From contig CADBFX010000013.1 in the NCBI GenBank assembly GCA_902794125.1, positions 1 through 54,703 of the forward strand: a DNA stretch of 54,703 bases. The letters are read 5' to 3'. This stretch comes from an uncultured Elusimicrobium sp. Lineage in GTDB: Bacteria; Elusimicrobiota; Elusimicrobia; Elusimicrobiales; Elusimicrobiaceae. Position 1 is the first letter of the stretch. Each line of letters begins with the position of its first letter. The notes under the pieces were generated by a model. The model was not told the DNA's origin. It saw only the letters and a list, made by a program, of their open reading frames with translations, and searched no databases. The position numbers were made by a program, and so were the translations under genes. Positions 16,165 through 33,456 of the stretch are shown here, in pieces.

Positions 16165-16173
16165 AATTGATTT

Positions 16174-17639: not shown

Positions 17640-17745
17640 TAATTTTCCCCACCTCCGACGGGGAAATTGCATGCTTTTTATCCGTCCGGATCATAGAGTG
17701 CTTTTAGAGGCGCACAAAAAAGGCCCGAAACGGGCCTTTTTCTCT
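17640..17745. repeat. Island-flanking repeat, left copy (with terminator)
   Basis: Contains a TTTCCCC/GGGGAAA hairpin (17644-17666), the string GTGCTTTTAGA and a GGCCCG-AAA-CGGGCC hairpin between A- and T-runs (17717-17741). The same order of elements recurs at 33330-33431. A shorter relative follows tRNA-Val (16171-16270). The hairpin also terminates the AlbA_2 gene on the - strand. Confidence 0.65.
17717..17741. terminator. Bidirectional terminator
   Basis: A perfect 11-bp stem (AAAAAGGCCCG / CGGGCCTTTTT) with loop AAA lies 30 bp downstream of the AlbA_2 stop codon on the - strand. Confidence 0.9.
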
Positions 17746-17771
17746 AACTGCCCAATTCGCAGGATCCAAAA

Positions 17772-18854: not shown

Positions 18855-18904
18855 TTTATTGCCTCTTCTACTGCGATGAACAAATGCTTTCCTTAACTGT
18901 TATT

Positions 18905-19432
18905 TTAGCAATATTTCCATACCTTTTCCTGTTCATCAAAATCCACTTGTCCCTCGGCAAGATTCATTAGTTCGCGCAATGTTAAATTATTCGGATTTTT
19001 GTATTCTAAAATATTGGTCACTATGTATGGCGATAAATAACATAAATTGACATATCGCATAATGGTACGCTTTGTCATGTGTTGTTCTTTCTCTAAATCC
19101 CTAACGCAAATTCCTCGATCCATTCTCTTTTTAAGTTGCCAGCCGCGTGCAAGGCCACGCACTAAACTTTCATTAAGTTGCCGTACAGTTAAAATATTGT
19201 GGGCACTCCCATTACGCAATTTTACCGATGAAACATTGGCTACCATAAATTTCCCGCGCACATATAAATTACCTTCTATCCGTTCTAGTGAAAGTGGTTT
19301 TCGCTCTAGTTTTTCCGTTATTTTCGGGCAATTAATCAAATCGGTTTTTATTTGCCTCTCATCTAAAAGAATCGTCAAATAATGCGCGTTCCCAGCCGTT
19401 TGGCATGTTGCCTTAACAATCCAAGACTGCAT
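18905..19432 (-). CDS. Recombinase-associated ParB/HTH-like accessory protein
   Basis: 175 residues. The C-terminal half (NESLVRGLARGWQLKKRMDRG, VRDLEKEQHMTKRTIMRYVNLCYLSPYIVTNILEYKNP, LTLRELMNLAEG) matches the helical DNA-binding tail seen at the end of, or beside, many large serine recombinases. It overlaps the 3' end of the recombinase by 58 bp in another frame. Together the two proteins would be about as long as a typical large serine recombinase. It is therefore either a separate accessory subunit or the C-terminal part of a frameshifted recombinase. Confidence 0.7.
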   Translation of the reverse strand: MQSWIVKATCQTAGNAHYLTILLDERQIKTDLINCPKITEKLERKPLSLERIEGNLYVRGKFMVANVSSVKLRNGSAHNILTVRQLNESLVRGLARGWQLKKRMDRGICVRDLEKEQHMTKRTIMRYVNLCYLSPYIVTNILEYKNPNNLTLRELMNLAEGQVDFDEQEKVWKYC

Positions 19433-20496
19433 TTGTTTATCCGTTTTTCCAAATCGGTCTGCCGGAGCATATCAAGCACGAAATTATCCAACTGCTCCAC
19501 GGGCAAATAATGTCCACCTACGCCGTTGTAGTAATACAGTATTTTTCTTCGGTGGCTTTTTGAGGAAGTAAACCGAAACTTTTTCCCTTTATCGTCATAC
19601 AACTTGCTCGCAAGTACCGTTTTATGGAACTTATAGTGGCAAAACGCATTCGGGTCGTTAATTCGCCTCCTAATTACTCCCTGAACCTGTTCCCATAACT
19701 CACGCGTAATAATGGGTTTATGCACCCCGTTATAAATTTTATTTTGTCTGTAATGCGTGATTTTTCCGAGGTAAACAGGATTAGTCAGCATACGTTGCAC
19801 GGTGTTTTTCTTAAACGGTTCGCCACCCCGCGTACGCTGGCTGTGCTTGGTAACCCATTTTTTGGTATGTATCCCCTGTTTATTTAGCCATTCAGCCACT
19901 CCAAGCATATTTTGTACTTCAAGATATTTTTGGAACACTTGCCGCACGATCTCCGCTTCCGGCTCATTTACCACTAGATGTCTGTCGTTAAGATCATATC
20001 CCAATGGCAAATTTCCTCCCATCCATAGCCCCTTGGCCTTACTGGCTGCTATTTTATCGCGCACACGCTCGGCGGATACTTCCCTTTCAAACTGGGCAAA
20101 AGACAAAAGCATATTGAGCGTGAGTTTCCCCATAGAATTGCTCGTATCAAACGATTGTGTTATAGATACAAAGTTGCACTCGTACTTGGCAAACTCCTGC
20201 ATCATCTTATGAAAATCAAAAATTGAACGCGAAAGGCGGTCAACCTTGTAGACAACAACTACCTGTATATTGCGCTCGCGGATTTCTTCCAAAAGCGCTT
20301 GCAAGCCGGGGCGCTCCATCGTACCACCGCTAATTCCGCCATCCTCAAAGGTTTTATAATACTCCCACCCATTAAACGCTTGCGAAAGAATATAGGCCTT
20401 ACAGGCTTCTTCTTGGTTTTGGAGCGAGTTAAACTCCATTTCTAGCCCGCGCTCCGTGGATTTGCGGGTGTATATTGCACAATTAATTTTTGCCAT
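19375..20496 (-). CDS. Large serine recombinase (site-specific integrase)
   Basis: 373 residues. The resolvase-type catalytic domain has the nucleophile Ser13 in AIYTRKS, SLQNQEEACKAYI, GGISGGTMERPGL and VVVYKVDRLSRS, followed by LLSFAQFEREVSAERVRDKIAASKAKG. The Recombinase domain follows (PLGYDL...VNEPEAEIVRQVFQKYLE, AEWLNKQGI, GEPFKKNTVQRMLTNPVYLGKI). The zinc-ribbon region (LASKLYDDKGKKFRFTSSKSHRRKILYYYNG) lacks the usual CxxC pairs, as in a known subgroup. It probably inserted this island. Promoter-proximal DNA contains the shared motif at 20524-20549. Confidence 0.9.
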   Translation of the reverse strand: MAKINCAIYTRKSTERGLEMEFNSLQNQEEACKAYILSQAFNGWEYYKTFEDGGISGGTMERPGLQALLEEIRERNIQVVVVYKVDRLSRSIFDFHKMMQEFAKYECNFVSITQSFDTSNSMGKLTLNMLLSFAQFEREVSAERVRDKIAASKAKGLWMGGNLPLGYDLNDRHLVVNEPEAEIVRQVFQKYLEVQNMLGVAEWLNKQGIHTKKWVTKHSQRTRGGEPFKKNTVQRMLTNPVYLGKITHYRQNKIYNGVHKPIITRELWEQVQGVIRRRINDPNAFCHYKFHKTVLASKLYDDKGKKFRFTSSKSHRRKILYYYNGVGGHYLPVEQLDNFVLDMLRQTDLEKRINKCSLGLLRQHAKRLGTRII

Positions 20497-20523
20497 TTAG
20501 TATAATTCTCCTATACACATTAC

Positions 20524-20549
20524 CGCTTACTATTGGGAGATAAGTCAAG
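20524..20549 (-). promoter_or_regulatory. Shared promoter motif, copy 1 (recombinase)
   Basis: Read on the - strand, CTTGACTTATCTCC carries a TTGACT -35 box and is followed by ATAgTAAGCG. A GGTAAT 18 bp further could be the -10. Nearly identical to the copies at 22169-22194 and 24898-24922, each upstream of a leftward gene. Confidence 0.65.
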
Positions 20550-20550
20550 C

Positions 20551-21186
20551 ATGAAAAGAGGGATTACATATTACGTAAGTACATTTATTAAAGACGAATG
20601 CAATAGTCCAGATGGCCGTTACAAATCATGGGAGTTTTGTTATCAATTTTTTTCAAAAAAATTCGACAAGCGGGATTGGGATAAAGCTGCCCTTATGCTA
20701 GCTTTTTATTTGGCCAGTTGGGGAATGTACCGTGGCAGCTCGTTTCTCCTGCAATACACATATACCATACATATACCCGCTCTAAAAATCATATTCTCAT
20801 CCAAATATAAACAGTTACATGATTCTCAAATACTTGATGGGCCCAAAATTGACCTTCTATTTCAATTAATTCAAGACCTAAAAAGCTATTATTTTACTAA
20901 ACAACATCAAATACGGCCTAATATAACCGATTCCGCTTTGGTATCTGATACACTTATCTCCAAGATTTTGATGGGCGTTCTGGGTAATATTCCCGCCTAT
21001 GACCGTTTTGTCAAAGCAGGTCTCAAAAAGAGCCATTTACTACAGACAATGTCTCCAAAAGGTTATAAACAGCTATGCGACTTTTATAAGCAGAACCAAA
21101 AAGAAATAGATACTCTTCATAAAACATACCATATATATCCGCCAATGAAGATATTGGATATGTATTTTTGGGGATTAGGACAATGA
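20551..21186 (+). CDS. Hypothetical island protein
   Basis: 211 residues from the ATG at 20551 (MKRGITYYVSTFIKDECN); a TTG at 20533 is an alternative. I do not recognise the family. It is probably a soluble mainly helical protein with aromatic-rich segments (WEFCYQFFSKKFDKRDWDKAALMLAFYLASWGMYRGSSFLLQ). No catalytic motif, signal peptide or clear membrane segment. It is the only rightward gene between the recombinase and the DUF2924 operon, and its 3' end overlaps the convergent DUF2924 gene by 12 bp. Its upstream region is the shared motif used in the other direction by the recombinase. Confidence 0.6.
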   Translation: MKRGITYYVSTFIKDECNSPDGRYKSWEFCYQFFSKKFDKRDWDKAALMLAFYLASWGMYRGSSFLLQYTYTIHIPALKIIFSSKYKQLHDSQILDGPKIDLLFQLIQDLKSYYFTKQHQIRPNITDSALVSDTLISKILMGVLGNIPAYDRFVKAGLKKSHLLQTMSPKGYKQLCDFYKQNQKEIDTLHKTYHIYPPMKILDMYFWGLGQ

Positions 21187-21618
21187 TCTATTAGTTAATC
21201 CGAAAAATTTGGGGCCGCTGACGTGACTTCGCACGATCTCCTCCGCTAGTGCTGTTAAATTGGGATATATTTTCCCTTCCCACTCGTAGGCGTTTTCCCC
21301 TTTTACGGTCACTTGATACATCTGTCCTTTATAAGTTTTTGTGAGTATCGTGCCAACGGCCAACGCATAGCGTTTTTTATGCGCATGCTCGATATACTTG
21401 TCGGGATTGCTCGCATAACGGTCAAGCCGCGTGATGTATTTTTCTTGTAATTTACAACGCCCTAGCTCACATTGGATGGCATACCACAAAGGGCGCAACT
21501 TGGCCTTAGCCCCTCTCAAAGGCCTGGTATAGAAAACATTCCAATAAAACCGCAGTTCTTTGGGAGATAATTCTTTTAATTCTTCATAACTTTTGGGCAA
21601 GTAGCATTTTCTTCTCAT
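21175..21618 (-). CDS. DUF2924 protein (recombinase-associated)
   Basis: 147 residues. The C-terminal part (VGTILTKTYKGQMYQVTVKGENAYEWEGKIYPNLTALAEEIVRSHVSGPKFFGL) fits DUF2924, a small domain commonly encoded beside phage or transposon serine recombinases. The N-terminal helical part (YEELKELSPKELRFYWNVFYTRPLRGAKAKLRPLWYAIQCEL) is also typical. The start overlaps the previous stop (ATGA, 21615-21618). Function unknown; a DNA-binding helper of recombination is the usual guess. Confidence 0.75.
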   Translation of the reverse strand: MRRKCYLPKSYEELKELSPKELRFYWNVFYTRPLRGAKAKLRPLWYAIQCELGRCKLQEKYITRLDRYASNPDKYIEHAHKKRYALAVGTILTKTYKGQMYQVTVKGENAYEWEGKIYPNLTALAEEIVRSHVSGPKFFGLTNRSLS

Positions 21619-21818
21619 GACAAAATATCTTTAATCTGACGGATTTTTTCCACCGAACGGCTTTGATTACAATAGGCCTTGGCTAAAGTTTCCAAAAATT
21701 TAGCGACTAACAAAACAATATCTCTTTCACGAAGATTTCGGGGAGGCCGCCCTAGGGGATTACCCGAGCGGCCCTTTACAAATCGCCCTGAGACCGGCGG
21801 CAAGCGACGCGGTGTCAT
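21615..21818 (-). CDS. Small DUF5681-like protein
   Basis: 67 residues. SGRFVKGRSGNPLGRPPRNLRER matches the N-terminal GxSGNPxGRP signature of DUF5681 proteins found in mobile elements. The rest is a short helix. Its start overlaps the upstream stop by 4 bp and its stop overlaps the downstream start, so all three genes are translationally coupled. Confidence 0.7.
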   Translation of the reverse strand: MTPRRLPPVSGRFVKGRSGNPLGRPPRNLRERDIVLLVAKFLETLAKAYCNQSRSVEKIRQIKDILS

Positions 21819-22123
21819 TTGGTAAGTCCAAAGAATACATAACCGCTGATTTGGCGCTTTACGATCATCATGGCTACGCGCGAAATGCTTTTGAATACTT
21901 TTCCTTCGTATTCAAAGCCGTTGTCTAATACCTTTACTTCTATGGTTTTACCACGGTAGGTTTTAGTGATGATGCTGCCGGGCACAGGCAAACGGTTATC
22001 GCGTGGCCGGACAGGCAGGTTTTCAAGCGGTGTTTCTTCGGTAATAATAGGACTCACTACCCGTAAAACAGCAGGTTGCGCGGGTTTAGTTTTTGTTACT
22101 GATTTTTTAGTGTTTTTCTTCAT
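21815..22123 (-). CDS. DUF2924 protein (second copy)
   Basis: 102 residues: a Lys/Thr-rich tail (MKKNTKKSVTKTKPAQPAV) and a C-terminal DUF2924 core (PGSIITKTYRGKTIEVKVLDNGFEYEGKVFKSISRVAMMIVKRQISGYVFFGL) parallel to the gene at 21175. First gene of a three-gene coupled operon under the shared promoter motif at 22169-22194. The two DUF2924 copies are clearly diverged, so they may act as a heteromer. Confidence 0.75.
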   Translation of the reverse strand: MKKNTKKSVTKTKPAQPAVLRVVSPIITEETPLENLPVRPRDNRLPVPGSIITKTYRGKTIEVKVLDNGFEYEGKVFKSISRVAMMIVKRQISGYVFFGLTK

Positions 22124-22168
22124 AACTTATCTCCTTAAGTAAGCGATTTTTACTTCGTACTACATTCA

Positions 22169-22194
22169 CGCTTAGTATCGGGAGATAAGTCAAG
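22169..22194 (-). promoter_or_regulatory. Shared promoter motif, copy 2 (DUF2924 operon)
   Basis: On the - strand CTTGACTTATCTCC is followed by CGATACTAAGCG, differing from the recombinase copy at only a few positions. The start codon of the first gene is about 45 bp downstream. Confidence 0.65.
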
Positions 22195-22223
22195 TAGGAT
22201 ATTAAATGTATGGCCGTTCCAAA

Positions 22224-23303
22224 TTAGGAAATGCAAGATTCCAAATAACAATTTAAAAATTTATCATTCACCATATCAGGGGTGACACTTCGGCGTTGCA
22301 GCAAAGAATATAACTCATCCACCGCCGAATACGGCATATACATGGCTTTTAATGAATGGAATTGCGGCTTATTGGCTTCCCGGTACACTTTATCCCGGTC
22401 TTCATCAGGGGCTACGATAATCCACCGTGTTGGAAAAGGCGGAATACGGTCCTGAAAATTTTTCATACGGGATAAACCGCTCGTCACGCCTGTAGAATGT
22501 TCTACTTCTATTACCGCAGGCATAAAACGGTCTCCTTCGAACCAAATGCCATCTATCAACAGTGCGGCATGGACAGCATCAGGATATGCTTGTAACATTT
22601 TTTCATCTTCCAAACGATGAATAACCCCTTCCAGTTCTCCCACCTTTTTATCGCCATACGTGAGTCCTTGATCATTACGGGCTATCCATGTTCGAAAACC
22701 AAAATGACGTCCGATAATTACCAATGCGATTTGAATTTGCAAGTGCCGTCTCTTGGCTTCAATATCCATTCCATTGTCAACAGGAGTATCCGGCAATGCA
22801 ATGGCTTCATAAACAGCTGATGCTGTCGGAATTTCCGAAATAGTTACATCTGTTTCATATTTTTCAGCAACGCCATTACGGTGAGGTTTCTCTGGTATCC
22901 AGACCAAGTGTTTATGGCCTCGTTTAATTTGGGAAGTAGAATCTACAAGTTCAATGCGACCAGGGAGGCACCAATAAAACTCTGGAGTATGGGCTAACAA
23001 AGTTTCCAATGCAGACCGGGTATTATAGCTGGCTCCCAGCACACGGTCAATATTTACTGGAACTCCGGGTTGGATTGCATTAGCCACCCGCCATAACATA
23101 TTGCCCGAAATATTGGCTTCTTTGGCGCTAATGACCGTTTGTTTGCGGGATGGATCATAACGCTTAATGACAATAGGTCCCTCGGGCAACTGGGCAGACA
23201 CAACCTGGATCTTCCCTTTTGAGTGTTCCCCAATATAGTCAAACCATTGGTTTCGTGGCAGATTATTTATTGCTTTTACGATGTTTTCCGGAGTTATCCT
23301 CAT
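22224..23303 (-). CDS. Putative type II restriction endonuclease
   Basis: 359 residues. It overlaps the 3' end of the cytosine methyltransferase by 41 bp and follows it in the vsr - methyltransferase operon, the usual place for the cognate endonuclease. KRRHLQIQIALVIIGRHFGFRTWIARND followed by ELEGVIHRLEDE and PAVIEVEHSTGVTSGLSRMKNF suggests a PD-(D/E)XK-like core in which the usual Lys is replaced (E-V-E). The C-terminus has strand-helix RWIIVAPDEDRDKVYREANK. I cannot name the family or recognition site from sequence. Restriction is inferred from position and this motif. Confidence 0.65.
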   Translation of the reverse strand: MRITPENIVKAINNLPRNQWFDYIGEHSKGKIQVVSAQLPEGPIVIKRYDPSRKQTVISAKEANISGNMLWRVANAIQPGVPVNIDRVLGASYNTRSALETLLAHTPEFYWCLPGRIELVDSTSQIKRGHKHLVWIPEKPHRNGVAEKYETDVTISEIPTASAVYEAIALPDTPVDNGMDIEAKRRHLQIQIALVIIGRHFGFRTWIARNDQGLTYGDKKVGELEGVIHRLEDEKMLQAYPDAVHAALLIDGIWFEGDRFMPAVIEVEHSTGVTSGLSRMKNFQDRIPPFPTRWIIVAPDEDRDKVYREANKPQFHSLKAMYMPYSAVDELYSLLQRRSVTPDMVNDKFLNCYLESCIS

Positions 23304-24396
23304 ACTTATAGTTTATAAACTCTAATATGGTTTTTGCAATACCATATGCAGCTTTATAAGGAACTCCGTTTCCTATCGTCTTAAACATGTCTGATAAAGA
23401 CATATCAGGTGGAAGAACAAATTCTTTCGGAAGAGACTGGATAGCCAACGCCTCAGCCGCTGAAATGCGGCGGGCTTCGTAAGGATGGATATGTACTTCA
23501 TTATTCCCGTAAGCGGCTGTCGGAGAATAACGCCAACGGTGCAGCCGTTTAAAGGATTTTTTGGCCACATCTCCTTCCGGGATAGTTTTAAATTTGCCCA
23601 AAGCCGATCTAGGCGTAAAACAGTGGGCTTGGTTGGGATGGCTCAGAACCCGGTTTTTATCAAACCAATATTGAACAGTTAATGACTTAATAATCCCTTT
23701 AGGAGCGGTACGGTCTTTTTTAGGAGATTCAGTATCCGGCCATGCCTGTTTCTTTACTTGCTCCCGGGTAAACAATATTTGGGAATTCCACGGCATTTCT
23801 TTAGGTAAATTCTTCAAGATCTTAGATTTTTTATTAAATCCGATCAGGATAATGCGTTCGCGGTCTTGAGGAGCACCGTATTCTAAGGCGTTGATTAACC
23901 GTTCAAATAACACATAACCGTTACTTTCAAATTGTTTTTTGATTTCTTCGTAGAAAGCGCGGTGTATTTTCGTCCGCCACAAGCCTTTTACATTTTCGAA
24001 TACAAAAAAGTCAGGCTTATACTGGCAAATAATATCAGCATATACCTGGGTTAACCGACCGTTTGAACCAGTTTTGCCACGGTTTTTTCCACCGACAGAG
24101 AAATCCGGGCAAGGTGGTCCTCCAATAAAGCCAATAGGCGAACCGCTTTTTTGGGCTGCTGAAAAAATCTTCTTAAAATTATTTGCGTCTTTACCGGTTA
24201 AAACAGATTCGGCAGATCCCTGAAGATAACCATACAAAGGCGGTTGTATATGCATTTGTTTCCTGGCGTACTGGTAGGCATGCAAAAAATCAGGATCAAA
24301 TTCATTCACAAAAGCAGATACAAACCCTGCTTTCTCAAAGCCTAAATCTAAAAATCCTATACCGGAAAAAAATGAAAATATTTGCGGTGCCTTCAT
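23263..24396 (-). CDS. C5-cytosine DNA methyltransferase
   Basis: 377 residues carrying the ordered cytosine-C5 motifs: FSGIGFLDLGF (I, AdoMet binding), GGPPCPDFS (IV, catalytic Cys96), FVFENVKGL (VI), EYGAPQDRERIILIG (VIII) and TIGNGVPYKAAYGIAK (X). The target-recognition region lies at about 200-330. Protects host DNA from the cognate endonuclease; target sequence not predictable here. GAGAGGA ribosome-binding site; 34 bp after vsr. Confidence 0.93.
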   Translation of the reverse strand: MKAPQIFSFFSGIGFLDLGFEKAGFVSAFVNEFDPDFLHAYQYARKQMHIQPPLYGYLQGSAESVLTGKDANNFKKIFSAAQKSGSPIGFIGGPPCPDFSVGGKNRGKTGSNGRLTQVYADIICQYKPDFFVFENVKGLWRTKIHRAFYEEIKKQFESNGYVLFERLINALEYGAPQDRERIILIGFNKKSKILKNLPKEMPWNSQILFTREQVKKQAWPDTESPKKDRTAPKGIIKSLTVQYWFDKNRVLSHPNQAHCFTPRSALGKFKTIPEGDVAKKSFKRLHRWRYSPTAAYGNNEVHIHPYEARRISAAEALAIQSLPKEFVLPPDMSLSDMFKTIGNGVPYKAAYGIAKTILEFINYKYEDNSGKHRKSNK

Positions 24397-24430
24397 AAAT
24401 ATTCCTCTCTTAGATTATACCTTTTACAAT

Positions 24431-24877
24431 TCATATTTGGATATCAGATATTTTTTGTTGAAATATTACTTCTTCAATATTTTGTTCTATTTCATTAATA
24501 CAAGCAGGAAGATTTTTCTTAATTTCCGTTTCCCAAAAACGTAATACCCGCCATCCGTTTCTTTTTAATTGGGCTGTTACTTCACGGTCTCTTTCACGGT
24601 TTCTTAAAATTTTATTTTTCCAAAATTCTTTATTAGTTCCGATCCTTTTGACAGTTTTTCTGAAGTCCTTTCCATGCCAAAATTCACTGTCACAAAAAAC
24701 AGCAATCTTATATTTTCTGAACACAATATCCGGTTTTCCGATAATATTTTTACAATTTTTCCGGTAACGGTATCCTTTATGCCACAATGCTTTCGCCAGC
24801 ATGAGTTCTATCTCCGTCCCCGAAGAACGGATAGCTTGCATATTGCGGTGGCGTTGTTCTTTTGTTAAACGGTCCAT
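24431..24877 (-). CDS. vsr: Vsr-type very short patch repair endonuclease
   Basis: 148 residues. RLTKEQRHRNMQAIRSSGTEIELMLAKALWHKGYRYRKNCKNIIGKPDIVF and KIAVFCDSEFWHG follow the Vsr fold. Vsr nicks T:G mismatches left by deamination of 5-methylcytosine, which fits its place in front of a cytosine methyltransferase. The segment usually written VDGCFWHGC reads CDSEFWHGK here: the Cys ligand after the first Trp-His-Gly is absent, which may alter the structural zinc site. AGAGGG ribosome-binding site. First gene of the restriction-modification operon. Confidence 0.85.
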   Translation of the reverse strand: MDRLTKEQRHRNMQAIRSSGTEIELMLAKALWHKGYRYRKNCKNIIGKPDIVFRKYKIAVFCDSEFWHGKDFRKTVKRIGTNKEFWKNKILRNRERDREVTAQLKRNGWRVLRFWETEIKKNLPACINEIEQNIEEVIFQQKISDIQI

Positions 24878-24897
24878 AGGCCCTCTTGTTCTATTTA

Positions 24898-24922
24898 GGC
24901 TTATATGAGGAGATAAGTCAAG
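24898..24922 (-). promoter_or_regulatory. Shared promoter motif, copy 3 (vsr/RM operon)
   Basis: On the - strand CTTGACTTATCTCC is followed by TCATATAAGCC; TAAATA 18 bp after the -35 box may be the -10. Same block as upstream of the recombinase and the DUF2924 operon. Confidence 0.65.
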
Positions 24923-25058
24923 TTAATTTAAGAAAATCTTTCTCTCATGATATCAATGATAATTTCATTTTGTTATACTATTATAACGAAGATAAATATC
25001 TTCACGATGTTCTATCTGTAATACAGTTTAATATACCTTTGAGGATAAATAATAGAAT

Positions 25059-26084
25059 ATGGAAGAAAAAGAAATTTTTATTCTAGGAGCAGGTTTCTCA
25101 CGAGCAATAGCGGGCGATAGCATGCCCTTACTTCATGAGTTGACAAAAGAAATTTCCGAAGGGATAACGTCCGGGTCAGATAATGATATTAAAAATATAT
25201 GGGATCAATATATTGTTCGGCCTAATATCGGAAACATTCGATCTATCGATGAACAAGAGCCTAATAAAAATCGATCCAATTTCGAAGATGTTATGACTTT
25301 TTTATCTTCGGATTTTGCTTATGAAGATTATAAAGATCAACACCTAAAAGCAATTCTATATCGGGACATCACAGATTTAATAGTGAAAATCTTCGAAAGA
25401 AAAAATCAAGAAAAGAGCATACTACAAGCTCCTTGGCTTCATAACTTTGCCAAATATTTGCATAATGAACGAGCTGAAATATTCACTTTTAATTATGATT
25501 TAGTGTTGGAAAATCTCCTTGCCCAATCTTTAAACTATCCTAACCACGATTTTGATCCAATCTATACCATAAAAACTATGGATAACAGTAACACAAGCTT
25601 CTTCAATAACGATGCTAGAGATTATTGGAGAAAATCCATCAAACTTTATAAATTACATGGTTCCATTAACTGGTTATATGATCCGGATTTTCAAAATGGA
25701 GTTAGAATCGTTTCCAGCCATACTTTACCAGAATATCGACAAGGACTCCAATGTTTAATAGTACCCCCAACTATGCTTAAAAATTTTGAATTAAAAACAA
25801 AACTTCTAGATTTTCAATGGCATGTTTTTAAAGACGATTTAACTCAGGCATCCAAACTATATATTATTGGCTACTCAATTCCCTTCACGGATGTAGCGAC
25901 ACGATTTGTATTGCAAACACAATTAAATCCAGAATGTGAAATTTTTATCGTCACCCTTAAGCCAATGATGGATATAGAACAAGGATGGTATGATTTATTC
26001 GCTTTGCAAAACAAAAGCGGAAACTTACACATACTTGAGTCTGGGTTTAATGAATACAGTATTAAAAAAATAGGATTAAGCTAA
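25059..26084 (+). CDS. SIR2-like domain protein (probable NAD-degrading defence effector)
   Basis: 341 residues. ILGAGFSRAIAGDSMPLL (10-26) is the SIR2 nucleotide-binding start; IFTFNYDLVLENLL (141-154) supplies the conserved Asn/Asp; LYKLHGSINWLYD (196-208) supplies the catalytic-type His200; LYIIGYSIPFTDVATRFVL closes the fold. Stand-alone SIR2-like proteins of this kind occur in antiphage systems where they deplete NAD+. Here a partner is not obvious, and this gene is transcribed opposite to the neighbouring operon. The ATG at 25059 has GAGGA upstream. Defence role is inferred. Confidence 0.8.
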   Translation: MEEKEIFILGAGFSRAIAGDSMPLLHELTKEISEGITSGSDNDIKNIWDQYIVRPNIGNIRSIDEQEPNKNRSNFEDVMTFLSSDFAYEDYKDQHLKAILYRDITDLIVKIFERKNQEKSILQAPWLHNFAKYLHNERAEIFTFNYDLVLENLLAQSLNYPNHDFDPIYTIKTMDNSNTSFFNNDARDYWRKSIKLYKLHGSINWLYDPDFQNGVRIVSSHTLPEYRQGLQCLIVPPTMLKNFELKTKLLDFQWHVFKDDLTQASKLYIIGYSIPFTDVATRFVLQTQLNPECEIFIVTLKPMMDIEQGWYDLFALQNKSGNLHILESGFNEYSIKKIGLS

Positions 26085-26127
26085 CCCGGCAACATTAGCA
26101 AATATTACTGCCGGGTTATTAATTTTC

Positions 26128-27189
26128 TTAGTTGACGCAACTTTTTGATAACATCGGTATCAGTAGTTCTTTGATTGTTTTAATGGCATCTTCCTCGATA
26201 ATACCTAACTCTTTAATATACTTCTCACACTGTCCGGCACTCGGTAAAGCCTGAGCGGCATCATATACCCCTTTGAAATGCTCGTAGCTATCGTTTAGTT
26301 CTTTCATTTCCCATTGAAAATGCGTCTTTTTTAACGCTCGGGTTAACATGTCACCGCGCTTAAATTCCCATTCCACGGTGGCATACTCGCTTTTCTCTGC
26401 CATCAAGTCAATATATTCTTTGAACTGCCGGAGAAATCCAACGCGCACCAGTTCTATTACCTTTTGGATTTGTTCGTACTCTTCGTCTGTAATTCGCACT
26501 ATGGGGCGGTTTTCGGCTAATGTTTGATAGAGCGTTGCCTTTTGTTCTTCGGCAAGGTTGGCGCTAGCATCATCTACCCCTTGCCAATAGGCATACTCTT
26601 GGGATATTTCATTCCAAAAGTTTTCTAAAATAAATAGGCACACATAGGTACACAGCAAATCCGACAAGATAAGAGCTGTGCCAAATGCCTTCCTACCACC
26701 TATCTGCTTAAACATGGCGTTTAGGTTAAGGTCACACTTCATCGGGTCGCACTGTTTGGCAGAAGATATGATTTTGTTATGATAGAGGAAATTATCTATC
26801 ATTTCTTCCGTTACATAGCCCTCTTTAATCAGGCGGCCCATAAAGAGCTCTGCTTTATCCTTGCGTTGACCTTTTTGGTGGATGTTAAAAAGTAGCTTTT
26901 GGCTTTGGATATCGCCGCGTAAGGCCTTATTGGTTAGTTGGCGGGCAAAACCCTGTTCTTTGGTGATTTTAGAGCCGTCCGTAAGTGTAATGGACGAGTT
27001 TAATTCACGTTGAATATAGGTATAAATACCGTTTTTACTGCCCTTGGTGCGGCCTTTGGGGTTACCGCTTTGGCCGGGTTTGAATTGGGTTTTCTTAGGT
27101 GGCTTACCGTACCCCACTTCGTATTGTTTGGGTGTGGTGGTAGGTTGTTCCGCTTGCGCGGGTACTTCTTTTACTTCAGTTTCATTCAT
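26128..27189 (-). CDS. DUF5681-domain protein
   Basis: 353 residues. YEVGYGKPPKKTQFKPGQSGNPKGRTKGSKN (about 23-53) is the DUF5681 signature found in mobile-element proteins, followed by ALRGDIQSQKLLFNIHQKG. The rest is helical (ENFWNEISQEYAYWQGVDDASANLAEEQKATLYQTL, FLRQFKEYIDLMAEKSEYATVEWEFKRGDML) and unrecognised. Its promoter is back-to-back with that of the LexA-like gene (27285-27313). An inverted repeat TTGCCG-ATAA-CGGCAA at 27256-27271 lies in the leader and could be an operator. Function unknown. Confidence 0.65.
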   Translation of the reverse strand: MNETEVKEVPAQAEQPTTTPKQYEVGYGKPPKKTQFKPGQSGNPKGRTKGSKNGIYTYIQRELNSSITLTDGSKITKEQGFARQLTNKALRGDIQSQKLLFNIHQKGQRKDKAELFMGRLIKEGYVTEEMIDNFLYHNKIISSAKQCDPMKCDLNLNAMFKQIGGRKAFGTALILSDLLCTYVCLFILENFWNEISQEYAYWQGVDDASANLAEEQKATLYQTLAENRPIVRITDEEYEQIQKVIELVRVGFLRQFKEYIDLMAEKSEYATVEWEFKRGDMLTRALKKTHFQWEMKELNDSYEHFKGVYDAAQALPSAGQCEKYIKELGIIEEDAIKTIKELLIPMLSKSCVN

Positions 27190-27255
27190 ATTACTGCTCC
27201 TTATGTTATGTTTTTTTTGTTTCCATAGTTATCCCTCTCGAACTTATAATTTTCC

Positions 27256-27271
27256 CTTGCCGATAACGGCA
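27256..27271. repeat. Inverted repeat in the DUF5681 leader
   Basis: TTGCCG (27256-27261) and CGGCAA (27266-27271) are exact inverted arms around ATAA. The left half TTGCCGATAA equals the 10-mer found twice upstream of fic. Confidence 0.65.
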
Positions 27272-27284
27272 AAACCCACGCTAC

Positions 27285-27313
27285 ATTAAAACATTTTTTC
27301 TATTTTATGTCAA
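27285..27313 (-). promoter_or_regulatory. Promoter of the DUF5681 gene
   Basis: On the - strand TTGACA (27313-27308) and TTTAAT (27290-27285) are 17 bp apart. The divergent LexA-like promoter starts 23 bp away. Confidence 0.7.
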
Positions 27314-27335
27314 GTTTTTCTATTTTTAATAGAAA

Positions 27336-27364
27336 TTGACTCTTTTTGTAAAAAGAGTTATACT
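27336..27364 (+). promoter_or_regulatory. Promoter and palindromic operator of the LexA-like gene
   Basis: TTGACT (27336-27341) and TATACT (27359-27364) are separated by 17 bp. The 20-bp near-perfect palindrome ACTCTTTTTGTAAAAAGAGT (27339-27358; 9-bp arms around GT) fills the spacer. A repressor bound here would occlude RNA polymerase, so autorepression by the LexA-like product is the simplest reading. Confidence 0.8.
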
Positions 27365-27383
27365 GTTTGTATTGGAAAACATT

Positions 27384-27968
27384 ATGCTTTCGGCAAAACA
27401 AAAACAAATTTTAGAACTCGTCCAACAAAACCCGCAAATCACTTTGGCAGAACTGGCCAAAGCGGTTGGCTTAAAGTCGGTCAGCACTGTGCACGTGCAT
27501 ATCCGCAAACTCATCAAAGAGAACTTTTTAGAACGCAACGGGCACGCACTGATTGCCACGCATCGGCCCGTGGATGAGTTTACCCCTATCCCCTTTTACG
27601 GATTTGCCCAATGCGGGGATACGGACATTTTTGCCGAGGAAAACATTGTGGACTATGTGAACATGCCCACCAAGTTTTTGCCCACTCCTACGCAAGATTT
27701 ATTTTTTATCAAGGCCAAGGGCGACTCTATGGAACCGTCTATCAGCGAGGGCGATATGCTGATGTTTCGTAAAACGAGCGAGTTACCCACTGTGGGTAGT
27801 GTGGTACTATGCCGCCGTGCGGACGGGCTGAAAATTAAGCGCCTTGGGCAGTATAATACCGAAAACGGCCCCGCCTACCGCTTGGTATCAGACAATAAAG
27901 CAAAATACGAGCCGTTCCCGGCAGATGAATCCGTCCAAATTTTAGCCAAACTTGTACGCATGAATTAA
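27384..27968 (+). CDS. LexA-like S24 transcriptional repressor
   Basis: 194 residues from the ATG at 27384; earlier in-frame starts lie inside the promoter. Residues 1-50 form a LexA-type winged helix (LSAKQKQILELVQQNPQITLAELAKAVGLKSVSTVHVHIRKLIKENFLER). The S24 peptidase domain has the Cys77-Gly78 cleavage dipeptide (FAQCGDTD), Ser115 in AKGDSMEP and Lys152 in LKIKRLG. It should cleave itself on contact with a RecA filament, linking gene expression to DNA damage. It is shorter and different from host LexA in position (beside an antirepressor-like gene on the island), so it probably governs island genes. Confidence 0.85.
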   Translation: MLSAKQKQILELVQQNPQITLAELAKAVGLKSVSTVHVHIRKLIKENFLERNGHALIATHRPVDEFTPIPFYGFAQCGDTDIFAEENIVDYVNMPTKFLPTPTQDLFFIKAKGDSMEPSISEGDMLMFRKTSELPTVGSVVLCRRADGLKIKRLGQYNTENGPAYRLVSDNKAKYEPFPADESVQILAKLVRMN

Positions 27969-27977
27969 GGAGACTGT

Positions 27978-28814
27978 ATGACTAAATCAGCACTTGCTAT
28001 TTTTGAAGATTTCAAAATCCGCCGCCAGTATGATGCGAAGACGGAAACGTGGTATTTTTCTATCGTGGATGTGATTTATGCACTTACGCAAAGTAATAAT
28101 CCTAGGAAATACTGGAGCGTCCTAAAAACTCGCTTAAAAAATGAAGGAAATCAAACGGCTACAAATTGTAGCCAGTTGAAATTTCCCGCCGAAGATGGAA
28201 AAATGCGCCTAACAGATGTAGCTAATCCAGAACAACTGTTGCGCCTTATCCAGTCCATTCCAAGCCCCAAAGCAGAGCCGTTTAAATTGTGGCTTGCCAA
28301 AGTGGGGTATGAACGCATCCAAGAAACGGCGGATCCTTCCAAGGCACTAGACCGCGCACGTTCCCATTGGAAAGCGCAAGGACGCAGCCAAAAGTGGATA
28401 CAACAGCGGATGATGGGCCAAGAAACCCGCAACAAACTGACCGATTACTGGCAAGCACACGGGGTAACCAAATCGGATGATTTTGCCATGCTCACAAACG
28501 TCATCCACCAAGAGTGGAGCGATTTATCGGTTGCTCAACACAAAAAACTCAAAGGGTTAGAACATCAAAACCTGCGCGAGCATATGAGTGAAGCCGAACT
28601 GCTTTTTACAGCACTTGCCGAATTATCTACCCGCCAAATAGCGGAAAAGGACCAAGCCGAAGGTGTACAAGAGAATAAAGAGGCAGGTCGCAAAGGTGGA
28701 AAACTCGCCAAACAAGCACGCTTGCAATTTGAAGAAGCTACCGGAACTAAAGTAGTTACATCCAAGAGTTCCTTGCCGGACTTTACGCCGAAGAGACAGA
28801 TTAGAAAGAAATAG
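27978..28814 (+). CDS. BRO-N domain (phage antirepressor-like) protein
   Basis: 278 residues. The N-terminal 110 residues (IFEDFKIRRQYDAKTETWYFSIVDVIYALTQSNNPRKYWSVLKTRLKNEG, then LRLTDVANPEQLLRLIQSIPSPKAEPFKLWLAKVGYERI) match the BRO-N/antirepressor domain. The middle (ALDRARSHWKAQGRSQKWIQQRMMGQETRNKLTDYW) and the C-terminus (NLREHMSEAELLFTALAELSTRQIA, then a Lys-rich tail) follow a widespread family with this domain order. It starts 9 bp after the LexA-like stop with a GGAG ribosome-binding site, so the two form an operon; antirepression of the LexA-like protein is a plausible inference. Confidence 0.8.
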   Translation: MTKSALAIFEDFKIRRQYDAKTETWYFSIVDVIYALTQSNNPRKYWSVLKTRLKNEGNQTATNCSQLKFPAEDGKMRLTDVANPEQLLRLIQSIPSPKAEPFKLWLAKVGYERIQETADPSKALDRARSHWKAQGRSQKWIQQRMMGQETRNKLTDYWQAHGVTKSDDFAMLTNVIHQEWSDLSVAQHKKLKGLEHQNLREHMSEAELLFTALAELSTRQIAEKDQAEGVQENKEAGRKGGKLAKQARLQFEEATGTKVVTSKSSLPDFTPKRQIRKK

Positions 28815-28880
28815 AGAAAATTATTTTTCTACACAAGCAACCCCAAAATGTAACTAAAATCAAATACTACCAGTTCCCAT

Positions 28881-31418
28881 TTAGGAATCTGATTTCTTCA
28901 CTCTTTCTACTAATAATCGATTAGGAGAAATTTGAAACAAAGCTGCTATTTGTTGTCTTTTCTCCATAATGTGATGAGTCAAAAAATGATGTATTACCAT
29001 CAATTTCATGATATTTTTTGATATATAATGCCAATTTCCCTTTTCCATTAAATTTTTTATCTCATCTAAATCTAAATCTTGTTTATACCGCATCAACATC
29101 CCATGCTTAACTAATAGACTGGCAGGAGTATTTATTTTATTTGCTACTGCTGTAACATTTGGAATTAATTGTTCCGTTCCTAAGTATGTAATTGCCACAT
29201 TTAACAGAGCATATATAAAGATAAAATTAAATGTCCAAAATAATCTCGTGGCAATTTTCTTCTGTTCTTCAATATCACGGTTCGATTCATTTTTCAATTT
29301 TTTTACTATTAAATCTGTAAAGAAATCCTCACTTTGTTTGTCATTTAAAACTTCAAAATAAGAAGATATAATCCTAAAGCAAATATTCAATCCGCCTTCA
29401 AATAAAGAATCTAATGATTTTTTATCTAGAGAGCCCGCTCTATTCTTAATCACTTGTCCTATTACTTCGATTGTTTTAATCGATCTTCTCAATTCTAAAG
29501 AAAAAGCATCATCTTCATCTTTATCATGTTCTTTTGCAGGGATCTCAGCATTTCTATCTTCCAGTAATAGTTCCTGTTTTCTAGTTTCTTCTGGAGTTAC
29601 ATTATGAGAAGGTAAATTCAAAGTCATATCTTCTAATTTATTATTAAAAAAAGCCAACTCATCTTTTGACAAGGACGCTTCTTTTTTCTTATCTAATAAG
29701 CACCAAGCATTCAATAAAATTTCTTCGAATAAAGAAATGTTTTTAATATGATGCGTCAGAAAAATAATGATATAGGCATAGTCATCTCTATGCAATTTTG
29801 CAATCAGATTATTAATAAGAGGCCTTTCTGATTCAAAATTTTCTGCTAGATACTTAGCCACAAAATAATAATAAATATATTTGAATTTAAAACGATATTC
29901 TCCGGTGGAATCATGGCGCAAAATATTTGATAAAATCAAAACACGTTTCACAGTATTGATTCTTTCAGGCAAATTATATTTGGAACTATATTGTTCGACA
30001 AACACAGAGAACTCTTCTTCGTGCATCATGGATTTATTAGTTGTAAAATATTCAAAAGCCAAATGGGTTAAAAAATTTAAATATCCATCAATAAGTCCGC
30101 CTTTAACTCCATTTTGACCAAGGTTCATTAATATAACAAAGAAATAACAGTATCCCTGTGAAGTAATATCTTGAAGCGGTTGGCCCGTGTAATAGGCTCC
30201 CAGCACAGACAATATAAAAAATGGATAAGAAGGCATGATACCATTACGAAATTCACGCCCCAGTGTATTATTTACAAGATCTGTAGCTTCATCTATACGT
30301 TCTAAACGATAGTTTTCCTCAACAATATTTCTATCCAAATCCACCCACTTTCTAATTAATTCCCCTTTTTTTGATGGTTTAAAAGGGATAATATGAACGA
30401 TTGAATAATCTTCTAATGTGGTATCCTTAAAATTTAAAACAAAAATATCATCGGATGTTAAAACAGAAAAAGCATATTTCTTTAAACCCAATATAATTTT
30501 CTCTTTTTTTTGCGTTCCTATATAAAAATGAAAATCATCAATTAGTGGTACTATCCTTTTAGCATCAACCAAAGAAAATGGAACAGAGTTCGTATATTGT
30601 TCTTTGTACAACTTTTCTATTTGCCTTTCGAAAAACCCAGACAAATCATTTTCCTTCGACGAAATCCATATCGGAACAAATCCCTGCTGTTGCAGTTGAC
30701 AATATAATATTTTTAACAAACTACTTCTTCCTGATTGACTATCCCCCGTAATAAGAATACGTTTTTTGGAAGGCAACAAATTAAGTAATTTATCACTAGA
30801 ATATTTTTCTGTTTTCTCCTCATCACGGAAAGTTTCTTCTAAATCAGGATAAACAAAAATATCTTCTAAACTTAGTTCTTCTTTGTACGGACATGTTTTA
30901 CTCAAAAGGCCAGTATCACTAAGAAATTTTTTAAATTCTAAAGAATTTTCTATTATCTTTGGAGATTTTGTATCCATAGAAGAAACAACTTTTTTTAATG
31001 CCTCATATATTTCTTGCCATGCATCATCCATGTTGGCAAAAGAATCAACAGGTTTGCCATCGTAAGGAAGCACTTTGATGGTAGCAATCTCAGGTAAATC
31101 TTTCCACGGACACGTAGATAAAATAATCGGAAAAATTTTCTTATTCAATGCAACAGCAGATTTTAATTCATCCATACATGATGAAGAACATATATAATGA
31201 ACTGATAACAAAACACATACAATATCTGCTTTTTTAAGCTCCTCATTGATAATTGATAACTCCTTGCCGACAGGAATCTTTTCATCACACCAAATTTTAA
31301 TATTTCCTTGCTTTTCTAATAAAGAAAGATGTTTTAGAAGAGAACTTCTAAATTTTTTGCGCTTTTCATCCTCGTGACAATAACTAATAAAAATAGAAAC
31401 TGGAGTTTTAATTTCCAT
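28881..31418 (-). CDS. TIR-domain STAND-like NTPase (probable antiphage protein)
   Basis: 845 residues from the ATG at 31418, which has an AGAGG ribosome-binding site. The N-terminal TIR domain (VSIFISYCHEDEKRKKF, IKIWCDEKIPVGKE, ADIVCVLLSVHYICSSSCMDELKSAV) carries the putative catalytic Glu84. The NTPase follows: RILITGDSQSGRSSLLKIL (225-233) is a P-loop in which Arg replaces the usual Lys, and RIVPLIDDFHFY (Asp294/295) is Walker B. The C-terminal half is helical and may be a sensor, with one hydrophobic stretch (RLFWTFNFIFIYALLNVAIT). TIR-NTPases of this plan degrade NAD+ upon phage sensing. Single gene, no obvious partner. Confidence 0.85.
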   Translation of the reverse strand: MEIKTPVSIFISYCHEDEKRKKFRSSLLKHLSLLEKQGNIKIWCDEKIPVGKELSIINEELKKADIVCVLLSVHYICSSSCMDELKSAVALNKKIFPIILSTCPWKDLPEIATIKVLPYDGKPVDSFANMDDAWQEIYEALKKVVSSMDTKSPKIIENSLEFKKFLSDTGLLSKTCPYKEELSLEDIFVYPDLEETFRDEEKTEKYSSDKLLNLLPSKKRILITGDSQSGRSSLLKILYCQLQQQGFVPIWISSKENDLSGFFERQIEKLYKEQYTNSVPFSLVDAKRIVPLIDDFHFYIGTQKKEKIILGLKKYAFSVLTSDDIFVLNFKDTTLEDYSIVHIIPFKPSKKGELIRKWVDLDRNIVEENYRLERIDEATDLVNNTLGREFRNGIMPSYPFFILSVLGAYYTGQPLQDITSQGYCYFFVILMNLGQNGVKGGLIDGYLNFLTHLAFEYFTTNKSMMHEEEFSVFVEQYSSKYNLPERINTVKRVLILSNILRHDSTGEYRFKFKYIYYYFVAKYLAENFESERPLINNLIAKLHRDDYAYIIIFLTHHIKNISLFEEILLNAWCLLDKKKEASLSKDELAFFNNKLEDMTLNLPSHNVTPEETRKQELLLEDRNAEIPAKEHDKDEDDAFSLELRRSIKTIEVIGQVIKNRAGSLDKKSLDSLFEGGLNICFRIISSYFEVLNDKQSEDFFTDLIVKKLKNESNRDIEEQKKIATRLFWTFNFIFIYALLNVAITYLGTEQLIPNVTAVANKINTPASLLVKHGMLMRYKQDLDLDEIKNLMEKGNWHYISKNIMKLMVIHHFLTHHIMEKRQQIAALFQISPNRLLVERVKKSDS

Positions 31419-31443
31419 ATACAATCCTCTATCTGATACATTT

Positions 31444-31483
31444 ATAGTACAACTACATTATTTATAATAAATTATTGTACTAT
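31444..31483. repeat. 9-bp inverted repeat upstream of the TIR gene
   Basis: ATAGTACAA (31444-31452) and TTGTACTAT (31475-31483) flank a 22-bp AT-rich centre, 26 bp before the TIR start codon. Operator or promoter-region structure is possible. Confidence 0.5.
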
Positions 31484-31826
31484 TTTTATATTCATGCATT
31501 TAAACATCAATCCATGTACCCAATTCTTAAGAGCCTTTTATAAATACAATATTTACACAGCAATATTTCTTTACCACCTTCCCTATTTCTTGTCTGATAT
31601 TTGCCTGTTCTTTCCCTGTTTCTCTGGGTAGGGAATTTGGGGTGTTTCTGGCGGATATTTCTCAGAAGAGAGATAAAATTCTCACAATGCCTTAGAATCC
31701 AATAGATAAAATTTTCAAATGCCTGTTTTTTGCCTGTTAATTGCCTGTTAAACAGGGAATTGCGCATTGCCACCCGGCGTTCTAAGAACCCGCAACCCAT
31801 CAAAATTTTCTGCCCCCCAATATAAC
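31484..31826. other. Gene-poor stretch with GCCTGTT repeats
   Basis: No supported gene. TGCCTGTT occurs at 31602-31609, 31720-31727, 31731-31738 and 31742-31749, and CCCTGTT at 31614-31620. The last copy begins the 13-bp palindrome CCTGTTAAACAGG (31744-31756). The region may be the decayed end of a mobile element. Confidence 0.45.
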
Positions 31827-31856
31827 GGGTCTGTCATTGAGACAGACCCATTTTTT
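31827..31856 (+). terminator. Orphan + strand terminator
   Basis: A perfect 9-bp stem GGGTCTGTC / GACAGACCC with loop ATTGA is followed by T6. No complete rightward gene lies immediately upstream, so it may belong to a lost gene or an unrecognised RNA. Confidence 0.75.
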
Positions 31857-31963
31857 GTCTTCTAGATTACTTTTCTCCAACGAATTTTTTTATCTTTACT
31901 TATCGTACATAATCATTTAGAATTATTTTGTAAATTGTAAAAAAAGATTAAGAGAAAGATTAA

Positions 31964-33259
31964 ATGAAGAATTATATTTATGGCTTAATTATTTTTGTTT
32001 GTCTTTGTGGCTTTTTGCATATAGTATTGGCAAACAAAACGATGAATATTGATATCAAAAACACTGCTTCAAATATTGAAAAGGTTGATTTTTATATTGA
32101 CCAGATAATTGACGATAATAAAAAATTTTTAGACAAATCCGATATAAAACAGTTTAGTTGGGACGTGGAACTTCTTGCGAGCAATTGGAATTATTATGAC
32201 GGAATTTTAATGCTTGCACTTATAAAACATGGAAAATATAAAGATTTTGCTGATGATTTTTATAATGCAATGATAAAAGATGATGGATCATTAAATAACG
32301 TCCGTAACAAACATAATGTAATTTTCAAATACGATGTTGATTTTTTCCCACAAGTAAGAACCCTTTTATACCTTGAAGATTCGAAACATTTTAATAAATA
32401 TAAGATTATGCTTGACGGGATGTATGATAAGCTGAAAACACATCCGGTTATATCTCAATGTGGCAATAATTTGTACCACCAGGCATTAAACCCTGGGTGG
32501 CAAAAATATCCTCTGGCTCTTGACGGTATATATATGGCGCAACCTTTTGTGCTCGAATACGAAAAAGAAGCCAATCGTTTGGGATTGAAACATAAAAACA
32601 ACGACAGTAAAAATATAGTTTTTAATCGATTAAATTGGGTTCATAACAATATGGCAAACAAACTAGATTTTTACGATCATGTAGTTTCAAATGACGGTAA
32701 AGAAACCAATCATGTTTCTTGGCTTCGCGCAATTGGTTGGTATGCAATGGCCCAGGTAGACATTTTGGATTCTCTTCCTGAAGGTGAAAATAAAGAGATA
32801 ATAAAAATCCAATTGAAAAAATTTTTTAATCCCATGATAAAAAAACAAAGTAAAACAAATGGAATGTGGAAAAATGTTGTATATTCGCATACAGGAAAAG
32901 AATTTATGAATATTTTTGAAATGGGACATAATTGTAATTATTATGAAACTTCTGGTTCTGCCATGATGGCCTATGCTTTAATGAAATCATATAATGAAGG
33001 ATACTTAACCGATAAAAAATATGCATACGCAGGATTAAAAGCCTTCAATGGTATCGTTTCAAACAATTTAAAACAAACTGACAAACATAGATATTCCCTC
33101 TCTAACATATATAGAAGTACAGGAGCAAGTTCTCAGATATCTTATTATAAATCTTGTAGAGGATACCTGTTCGATGAAGCAAAAGGTGTTGCCCCTCTAA
33201 TTTTGGCAAATGTTGAAGCTAAAAAACTCTTAAAAATTTTGTACAACTCCGAAAAATAA
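31964..33259 (+). CDS. GH88/GH105-like unsaturated glucuronyl/rhamnogalacturonyl hydrolase
   Basis: 431 residues with a signal peptide or membrane anchor (MKNYIYGLIIFVCLCGFLHIVLANK). The (alpha/alpha) barrel motifs of the YteR/GH105 group are visible: WDVELLASNWNYYDGILMLAL, LALDGIYMAQPFVLEYEKE (candidate catalytic Asp), HVSWLRAIGWYAMAQVDILDSLPEG and YYETSGSAMMAYALMKSYNEGYL. Such enzymes remove unsaturated uronic acids from polysaccharide-lyase products, for example from pectin or host glycosaminoglycans. It is strikingly AT-rich, has AGAGAAAG as ribosome-binding site, and stands alone at the right end of the island with no lyase beside it, so recent transfer is likely. Confidence 0.75.
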   Translation: MKNYIYGLIIFVCLCGFLHIVLANKTMNIDIKNTASNIEKVDFYIDQIIDDNKKFLDKSDIKQFSWDVELLASNWNYYDGILMLALIKHGKYKDFADDFYNAMIKDDGSLNNVRNKHNVIFKYDVDFFPQVRTLLYLEDSKHFNKYKIMLDGMYDKLKTHPVISQCGNNLYHQALNPGWQKYPLALDGIYMAQPFVLEYEKEANRLGLKHKNNDSKNIVFNRLNWVHNNMANKLDFYDHVVSNDGKETNHVSWLRAIGWYAMAQVDILDSLPEGENKEIIKIQLKKFFNPMIKKQSKTNGMWKNVVYSHTGKEFMNIFEMGHNCNYYETSGSAMMAYALMKSYNEGYLTDKKYAYAGLKAFNGIVSNNLKQTDKHRYSLSNIYRSTGASSQISYYKSCRGYLFDEAKGVAPLILANVEAKKLLKILYNSEK

Positions 33260-33291
33260 TTCGAATTTTGATCTCCCAACACCCAGTTTTG

Positions 33292-33325
33292 CAAACTACC
33301 TCGGGCTTCCGCTCGTGGTAGTTTG
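33292..33325 (+). terminator. Long hairpin after the GH105-like gene
   Basis: CAAACTACC (33292-33300) pairs with GGTAGTTTG (33317-33325). The inner CGgGC / GCtCG extends the stem to about 14 bp with a TTCC tetraloop. T-rich DNA follows within 10 bp. Confidence 0.65.
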
Positions 33326-33329
33326 TTGG

Positions 33330-33431
33330 TTAGTTTTCCCCCTCATCGGTGTTTTGAAACCGTTTTATCCGGGTTCGAGTTGAAGTGCTTTTAGATGTGC
33401 GCAAAAAAGGCCCATTTCGGGCCTTTTTCAC
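33330..33431. repeat. Island-flanking repeat, right copy (with terminator)
   Basis: Repeats the order of the left copy (17640-17745): TTTTCCCC, a TTTATCCG string, GTGCTTTTAGA and the A-run GGCCC / GGGCC T-run hairpin. The two copies are diverged but clearly related and bracket about 15.7 kb. Confidence 0.6.
33404..33428. terminator. Bidirectional terminator after the Mla operon
   Basis: A perfect 10-bp stem AAAAAGGCCC / GGGCCTTTTT with loop ATTTC lies 29 bp downstream of the Mla lipoprotein stop on the - strand. Confidence 0.88.
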
Positions 33432-33456
33432 TGCGAAAACTGCAGAATTCAACAAA

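Follow-up and report, generated by a model that had tools for sequence, protein, structure and literature searches.

A LexA-like repressor gene that is not the organism's own lexA was found on a mobile island in the 54,703-nucleotide stretch of Elusimicrobium DNA analyzed in this study (hereafter the window). Its sequence context makes it moderately probable that the encoded protein, an accessory repressor of the self-cleavable LexA type, controls itself, an exchangeable Bro-N or RhuM gene, and a divergent DUF5681 gene from one central operator, the inverted repeat B. The first-pass annotation had likewise proposed a self-repressing LexA-type switch, a reading supported by the cleavage residues and by conserved sites at the gene's own promoter. 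The choice of operator was not supported: judging from the natural copies of the locus, the main operator is probably repeat B, rather than the neighboring palindrome A in the promoter spacer. The features discussed below are collected in Table 1.

Table 1. Features of the LexA-like locus and its island, in window positions.
Feature	Position	Strand	Basis or remark
Large serine recombinase, two overlapping frames (18905-19432 and 19375-20496)	18905..20496	-	Frame comparison
Two DUF2924 genes (21175-21618 and 21815-22123)	21175..22123	-	Present along with the recombinase elsewhere
Variable cargo: type II restriction enzyme, cytosine methylase, Vsr, SIR2-like	22224..26084		Absent or replaced in several copies
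DUF5681 protein, 353 aa, divergent partner	26128..27189	-	Pfam PF18932, 70.8 bits
Predicted promoter P_L of DUF5681, TTGACA-17 nt-TTTAAT	27285..27313	-	Conserved hexamers
Extra half-site TTTCTAT in the P_L spacer	27297..27303		Same in 11 of 12 copies; one variable column of 7
Inverted repeat B, TTTCTAT-TTTTA-ATAGAAA, proposed operator	27317..27335		Arms conserved; between the two -35 boxes
Predicted promoter P_R of the LexA-like operon, TTGACT-17 nt-TATACT	27336..27364	+	Consensus scan; conservation
Palindrome A, ACTCTTTTTGTAAAAAGAGT	27339..27358		Possible accessory site or chance; 9 of 10 pairs
LexA-like repressor, 194 aa, winged HTH and Peptidase_S24	27384..27968	+	Profile and structure-database matches
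Bro-N protein (PDC-S13), probable operon partner	27978..28814	+	Starts 9 nt past the LexA-like stop
Variable cargo: TIR-STAND protein related to DS8/PDC-S60	28881..31424	-	Scored 444 bits (DS8 cut-off 790)

The island-borne LexA-like protein and the probable host LexA

The LexA-like frame, which opens with an ATG at 27384, encodes a DNA-binding domain fused to Peptidase_S24, as in S24-type repressors, and both domains scored above their Pfam cut-offs (HTH_24 with 43.8 bits against 21.9, Peptidase_S24 with 65.5 bits against 23.3). The Pfam family LexA_DNA_bind remained just under its cut-off (21.9 against 23.7 bits), and the LexA equivalog TIGR00498 reached 60.7 of the 110.95 bits required by its cut-off. 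At an E-value of 0.001 or less, the PDB matches comprised eight distinct sequences, all of them named LexA repressor (best E-value 2.9e-8), and a match to PHROG 4 was also observed (78.8 bits). The residues earlier singled out for self-cleavage held up: Cys77-Gly78, Ser115, and Lys152 were aligned by HMMER with the LexA chains and were invariant in all 14 aligned sequences, namely the 12 island copies, the distant homolog L092, and the host LexA. These residues correspond to the scissile X-Gly bond and the Ser/Lys dyad.

Including the window, the LexA-like gene was present in 10 of the 90 family genomes as 12 copies with protein identities of 96-100%, two genomes holding two copies each. All ten carriers belong to one genus; their records name them as uncultured Elusimicrobium, Elusimicrobia, or Elusimicrobiaceae, and several of these names mention rumen. 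Over 66 pairs of copies, the median dN was 0.025, the median dS 0.53, and the median dN/dS 0.047. Across the 340 genomes of the phylum (E-value of 1e-20 or less), one further full-length relative was found at about 49% identity (L092), together with two partial relatives and two at 32-33%; the sequence L098/L017 is a relic that lacks the HTH part. All matches in phages and plasmids (25 and 9 records, respectively) were under 60% identity, and a pattern-based search of viral_contigs returned no relative of the LexA-like, DUF5681, or Bro-N proteins.

A host-type LexA, about 30% identical to the island protein, was found in 67 of the 90 family genomes at an E-value of 1e-10 or less. Eight of the ten carriers also have such a separate host LexA, and the other two (G005 and G050) show none at that threshold. 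The genome of the window encodes a second gene that scored 113.5 bits against TIGR00498 (cut-off 110.95) and is likely the host LexA, as well as a RecA gene. In the 250 bp preceding the host lexA genes (L002 and L042-L061), a direct repeat TAGAAC-N6-TAGAAC was observed, which was exact in 20 of the 21 Elusimicrobiaceae loci examined (drawn from the 67 genomes with the gene) and had one mismatch in the 21st. The sequence pattern suggests that this is the probable direct-repeat LexA box of the Elusimicrobiaceae, and excerpts of PMC7739468 report that direct-repeat LexA motifs evolved several times. By eye, no such box was seen in the 250 bases that precede the recA frame.

Repeat B, palindrome A, and the predicted divergent promoters

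The intergenic region upstream of the LexA-like gene spans 194 bp with an A+T content of 72%. In 2,000 dinucleotide shuffles of this region, a 20-bp palindrome with at least nine of ten pairs appeared in 30, and an exact 7-5-7 inverted repeat in 75; hence, neither palindrome A nor repeat B would be compelling from one sequence alone. The 12 copies of the locus allowed the two to be compared by nucleotide diversity (pi), for which all copies were kept, including a pair from genome G054 (L007 and L008) that shares the same 100-nt promoter stretch.

Repeat B was exact in 11 of the 12 copies and had a single mismatch in the remaining one. Its arms showed pi values of 0.000 and 0.024 with one of 14 columns variable, and the 5-nt center a pi of 0.167. 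In comparison, the 4-fold degenerate sites of the LexA-like gene had a pi of 0.312 with 49 of 63 variable. The arms differed both from these sites (Fisher p of 1.2e-6) and from the center taken together with the adjacent 3-nt gap, where four of eight columns varied (Fisher p of 0.04), although the tests treat columns as independent while the copies are related. The opposite was seen for the left inner arm of palindrome A, where all seven columns were variable (pi 0.375); it differed from the B arms (Fisher p of 7e-5) and could not be told apart from the 4-fold sites (Fisher p of 0.33). The right half of palindrome A, TAAAAAGAGT, was moderately conserved (pi 0.12). Nine of ten pairs were retained in seven copies, and the other five had eight, seven, six, three, and three pairs. 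The two copies with three pairs (L011 and L013) encode proteins 96% identical to that of the window. Since L011 and L013/L016 stand apart on the gene tree, palindrome A has changed at least twice, if the moderately supported tree is right.

The first-pass annotation had described palindrome A as exactly filling the promoter spacer. The palindrome, the two hexamers (TTGACT at 27336-27341 and TATACT at 27359-27364), and the 17-nt spacer (27342-27358) are all present; the palindrome covers the whole spacer and reaches into the -35 box by three bases, which means that the filling is not exact. Its proposed role as the main operator was rejected, as the left inner arm drifts at the rate of synonymous sites and the pairing has fallen in five copies, to three pairs in two of them. 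Further copies in the island, which had been suggested as a check, were not found: neither the window nor the 1.43-Mb draft genome contained a second site with up to three mismatches, and a regulon built on palindrome A was rejected accordingly. The exact arms, ACTCTTTT-N4-AAAAGAGT, occurred at five of the 12 copies and once elsewhere among the 90 family genomes, with a control count of zero; the single site away from the island copies is in genome G074.

Two predicted promoters run in opposite directions from this region. For P_R, the -35 box had a pi of 0.028 with one of six columns variable, and the -10 box a pi of 0.000. For P_L, the -35 box TTGACA (27313-27308) and the -10 box TTTAAT (27290-27285) each had a pi of 0.028 with one of six columns variable, and the spacer ends in TGT, placing a TG one base before the -10 box, which was changed in L013. 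P_L was absent from the consensus scan because the scan demands an A at the second -10 position. The positions of P_R and P_L place repeat B between back-to-back -35 boxes, abutting that of P_R and 3 nt from that of P_L, and its conservation could thus partly reflect promoter elements. A natural comparison was provided by the one copy seen without DUF5681 (L015, the same locus as L124), in which the P_L -35 box, the extra half-site, and the last base of repeat B were all changed; though only one case, this supports P_L and a shared operator. A perfect inverted repeat with 6-bp arms, TTGCCG-ATAA-CGGCAA, was also observed at 27258-27273 in the probable DUF5681 leader; it was unchanged in several copies, but others, L013, L015, and L016 among them, had an altered sequence.

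Exact copies of repeat B were found at 14 sites in the 90 family genomes, 11 of them at the island promoter, compared with two for the reversed-pattern control; the other three sites were in genomes of another genus (g5) without the island gene. A regulon built on repeat B was rejected, as B-like sites with up to two mismatches were not above control: the draft genome contained the exact repeat once and 26 sites at this threshold, compared with 32 for the control. Assuming that repeat B is its site, the LexA-like protein therefore shows no dispersed SOS regulon. At the same threshold, the sole extra site in 12 scanned stretches (window 16001-34000 and L117-L127, several of which end at contig ends) was at position 1553 of L122. 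Recombinase sequence lies upstream or downstream of the switch in eight of these stretches and had a B site in none, so the recombinase is apparently not under the control of repeat B. By eye, no recognizable repeat B was present upstream of the distant homolog L092. A B-derived pattern in three viral_contigs entries was set aside as chance, with no clear LexA-like relative and two weak matches at 29%.

Partner genes and the serine-recombinase island

A Bro-N or RhuM frame begins 9-10 nt past the LexA-like stop in 10 of the 12 copies, with Bro-N in seven (one cut by a contig end) and RhuM in three (one shortened, 225 aa). The remaining two copies have a shortened Bro-N frame (L122) and only a Bro-N remnant (L120). 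PADLOC assigned the Bro-N protein of the window to PDC-S13 with 397.9 bits and the two complete RhuM proteins to PDC-S05 with 506.6 and 512.8 bits; by these family names, they are candidates for phage defense. Bro-N relatives were present in 12 plasmid records, and a LexA-like neighbor was found in none of the four inspected, for which the PLSDB gene tables are incomplete. One relative with 54% identity (L128, 2992-3888) is flanked by cas4 and cas1 within the type I-B CRISPR-Cas operon of an Arcobacter plasmid. On the other side of the promoter region, DUF5681 was complete beside the LexA-like gene in nine of the 12 copies; of the others, L127 has it cut by a contig end, L126 has just 178 nt before the ATG, and L124 carries a Fic gene instead. 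Sequence comparison of DUF5681 with the PDB gave chance-level matches only, and its AlphaFold2 model, built from nine near-identical sequences, had a mean pLDDT of 54.

The LexA-like gene belongs to a large-serine-recombinase island of rumen Elusimicrobiaceae, which combines a recombinase and exchangeable cargo with the same core in different genomes. On long contigs, the core is arranged as the large serine recombinase, two DUF2924 genes, variable cargo, DUF5681, the divergent LexA-like gene, Bro-N or RhuM, and more cargo. In the window and in L117, L118, L121, L122, L123, and L125, all or part of the recombinase was found in line with the LexA-like gene; in others it is hidden by contig ends. 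The recombinase forms a single frame of 542-554 aa in L117, L118, L119, and L125, but is split in the window, whose island copy may therefore be immobile. In the part of the cargo that was searched, the copies included type II and type III restriction systems, Vsr, SIR2, IetAS, an Mrr-like protein, and TIR-STAND; most other open reading frames of L117-L127 were compared with the window proteins only. No phage structural family was detected by Pfam among 20 window proteins scanned, so that structural genes of the kind that would accompany a prophage CI repressor were not seen among them.

A common right end near window positions 31816-31825 was shared by six of the 11 other stretches, in two of which it was joined to sequence resembling that at 17594. 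Several further observations were made on the island. A promoter-like motif (minus strand, TTGACTTATCTCC) occurs in three copies (20517-20554, 22162-22199, and 24904-24923), which precede the recombinase, DUF2924, and Vsr genes; their positions match points at which the cargo differs from copy to copy. In L119 (11000-16422), the right-end sequence of one element is followed by the recombinase of another, apparently head to tail, which suggests arrays of elements. Fragments resembling tRNA 3' ends at 16361-16394 and 17563-17596, beside a tRNA-Val at 16092-16164, are possible traces of earlier integrations. In addition, a 49-nt direct repeat (84% identical; 17697-17745 and 33384-33432) with a terminator-like hairpin flanks about 15.7 kb including the island.

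A proposed switch and its alternatives

In the proposed mechanism, a repressor dimer would bind repeat B, and the position of the repeat at the P_R -35 box and near that of P_L would let this one site shut both promoters. With repeat B occupied, the operon of the LexA-like gene and Bro-N (or RhuM) as well as DUF5681 would be off. RecA filaments formed after DNA damage or phage attack would then lead the repressor to cut itself at Cys77-Gly78 by means of Ser115 and Lys152, which would release both transcripts; this DNA-damage step is modeled on what is established for S24 repressors. A broader reading, plausible but somewhat less likely than not, is that of a mobile plug-in switch on the recombinase island, in which a LexA and an inverted-repeat operator, both private to the element, would place Bro-N or RhuM and DUF5681 under DNA-damage control and leave the host SOS response untouched.

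For S24-type repressors, inducing signals besides RecA are possible. An autorepressor at repeat B could instead be relieved by DUF5681, the Bro-N or RhuM protein, or a phage factor acting as an antirepressor. Bro-N domains are known from phage antirepressors, and DUF5681 and Bro-N or RhuM are the usual partners of the LexA-like gene, but the cleavage residues are invariant in the 12 copies and in L092 at 49% identity, which would be unexpected were cleavage unused; this version appears unlikely. Quite unlikely is that palindrome A is the operator, or a second and lineage-specific one, where the repressor would block RNA polymerase at P_R only. The spacer is a location well suited to repression, and the retained pairing in seven copies and the conserved right half would fit such a role; the drift of the left inner arm and the loss of pairing beside nearly identical proteins, on at least two occasions by the gene tree, argue against it.

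Both inverted repeats might also be by-products of an A+T-rich divergent promoter region, with conservation that reflects the promoters rather than an operator. The base composition and the shuffle frequencies given above lend this some weight, yet the arms of repeat B are kept while its center and gap change, and the exact repeat recurs at the island promoter in 11 of 12 copies, so that this explanation is considered decidedly unlikely. Control of the LexA-like promoter by the host LexA, rather than by the island protein, is highly improbable. The half-site ATAGAAA of repeat B does resemble the host half-site TAGAAC, and the start of the LexA-like gene itself contains, at 27400-27417, a match to the host box with two mismatches. 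However, the host box is a direct repeat and the proposed island operator an inverted one, no host box with fewer than two mismatches occurs in the window, and genome-wide matches with up to two mismatches numbered 57 on one strand and 68 on the other, below the control counts of 94 and 92.

The switch proposed around repeat B shares features with several known systems. Like LexA (TIGR00498; PDB entries 1jhf and 7b5g, from E. coli), the island protein has a winged HTH and S24 domain, the same position of the scissile bond, the Ser/Lys dyad, and its own promoter as a probable target; it differs in scoring below the equivalog cut-off, in being accessory and island-borne, and in probably acting at a single operator per element instead of on a dispersed regulon. 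The CI-type repressors of prophages and ICEs (PHROG 4), such as lambda CI and SXT SetR, are likewise element-borne S24 repressors at a divergent promoter region. In contrast to these, the island protein has a LexA-like N-terminal winged HTH, no phage structural gene was seen among the scanned window proteins, and no repeat B lies near the recombinase in those stretches that include it. CapK/CapS and CapH/CapP are DNA-damage-controlled immune operons. E. coli DinD, an SOS gene, resembles the Bro-N protein of the window weakly (23% over 217 columns, E-value of 9e-6 in a single comparison), but does not adjoin a lexA gene. In CapK/CapS and RptR, as proposed for the island, a repressor gene beside defense genes sets their expression; according to excerpts of the sources, CapK/CapS differs in that a kinase phosphorylates the repressor, and RptR in that an alpha-helical repressor acts on TAGCTA (PMC13373217, PMC12255303). 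The word LexA is absent from the main texts of both. Among the matches listed in searches of the open-licence literature, no such switch was described; the topics covered were LexA in Elusimicrobia, LexA motifs by phylum, DUF5681, LexA-like genes and defense islands, SOS and anti-phage defense, RhuM and DinD, CapH/CapP, PDC-S05, and a second LexA on mobile elements.

The example illustrates that natural copies of a locus can pick out an operator where a single sequence misleads. A wider question is how defense genes that may burden their host are silenced and later switched on. If the proposed switch is correct, a private LexA with an exchanged Bro-N or RhuM partner would tie two defense candidates to DNA damage in these Elusimicrobiaceae, and it would offer a simple assay for both.
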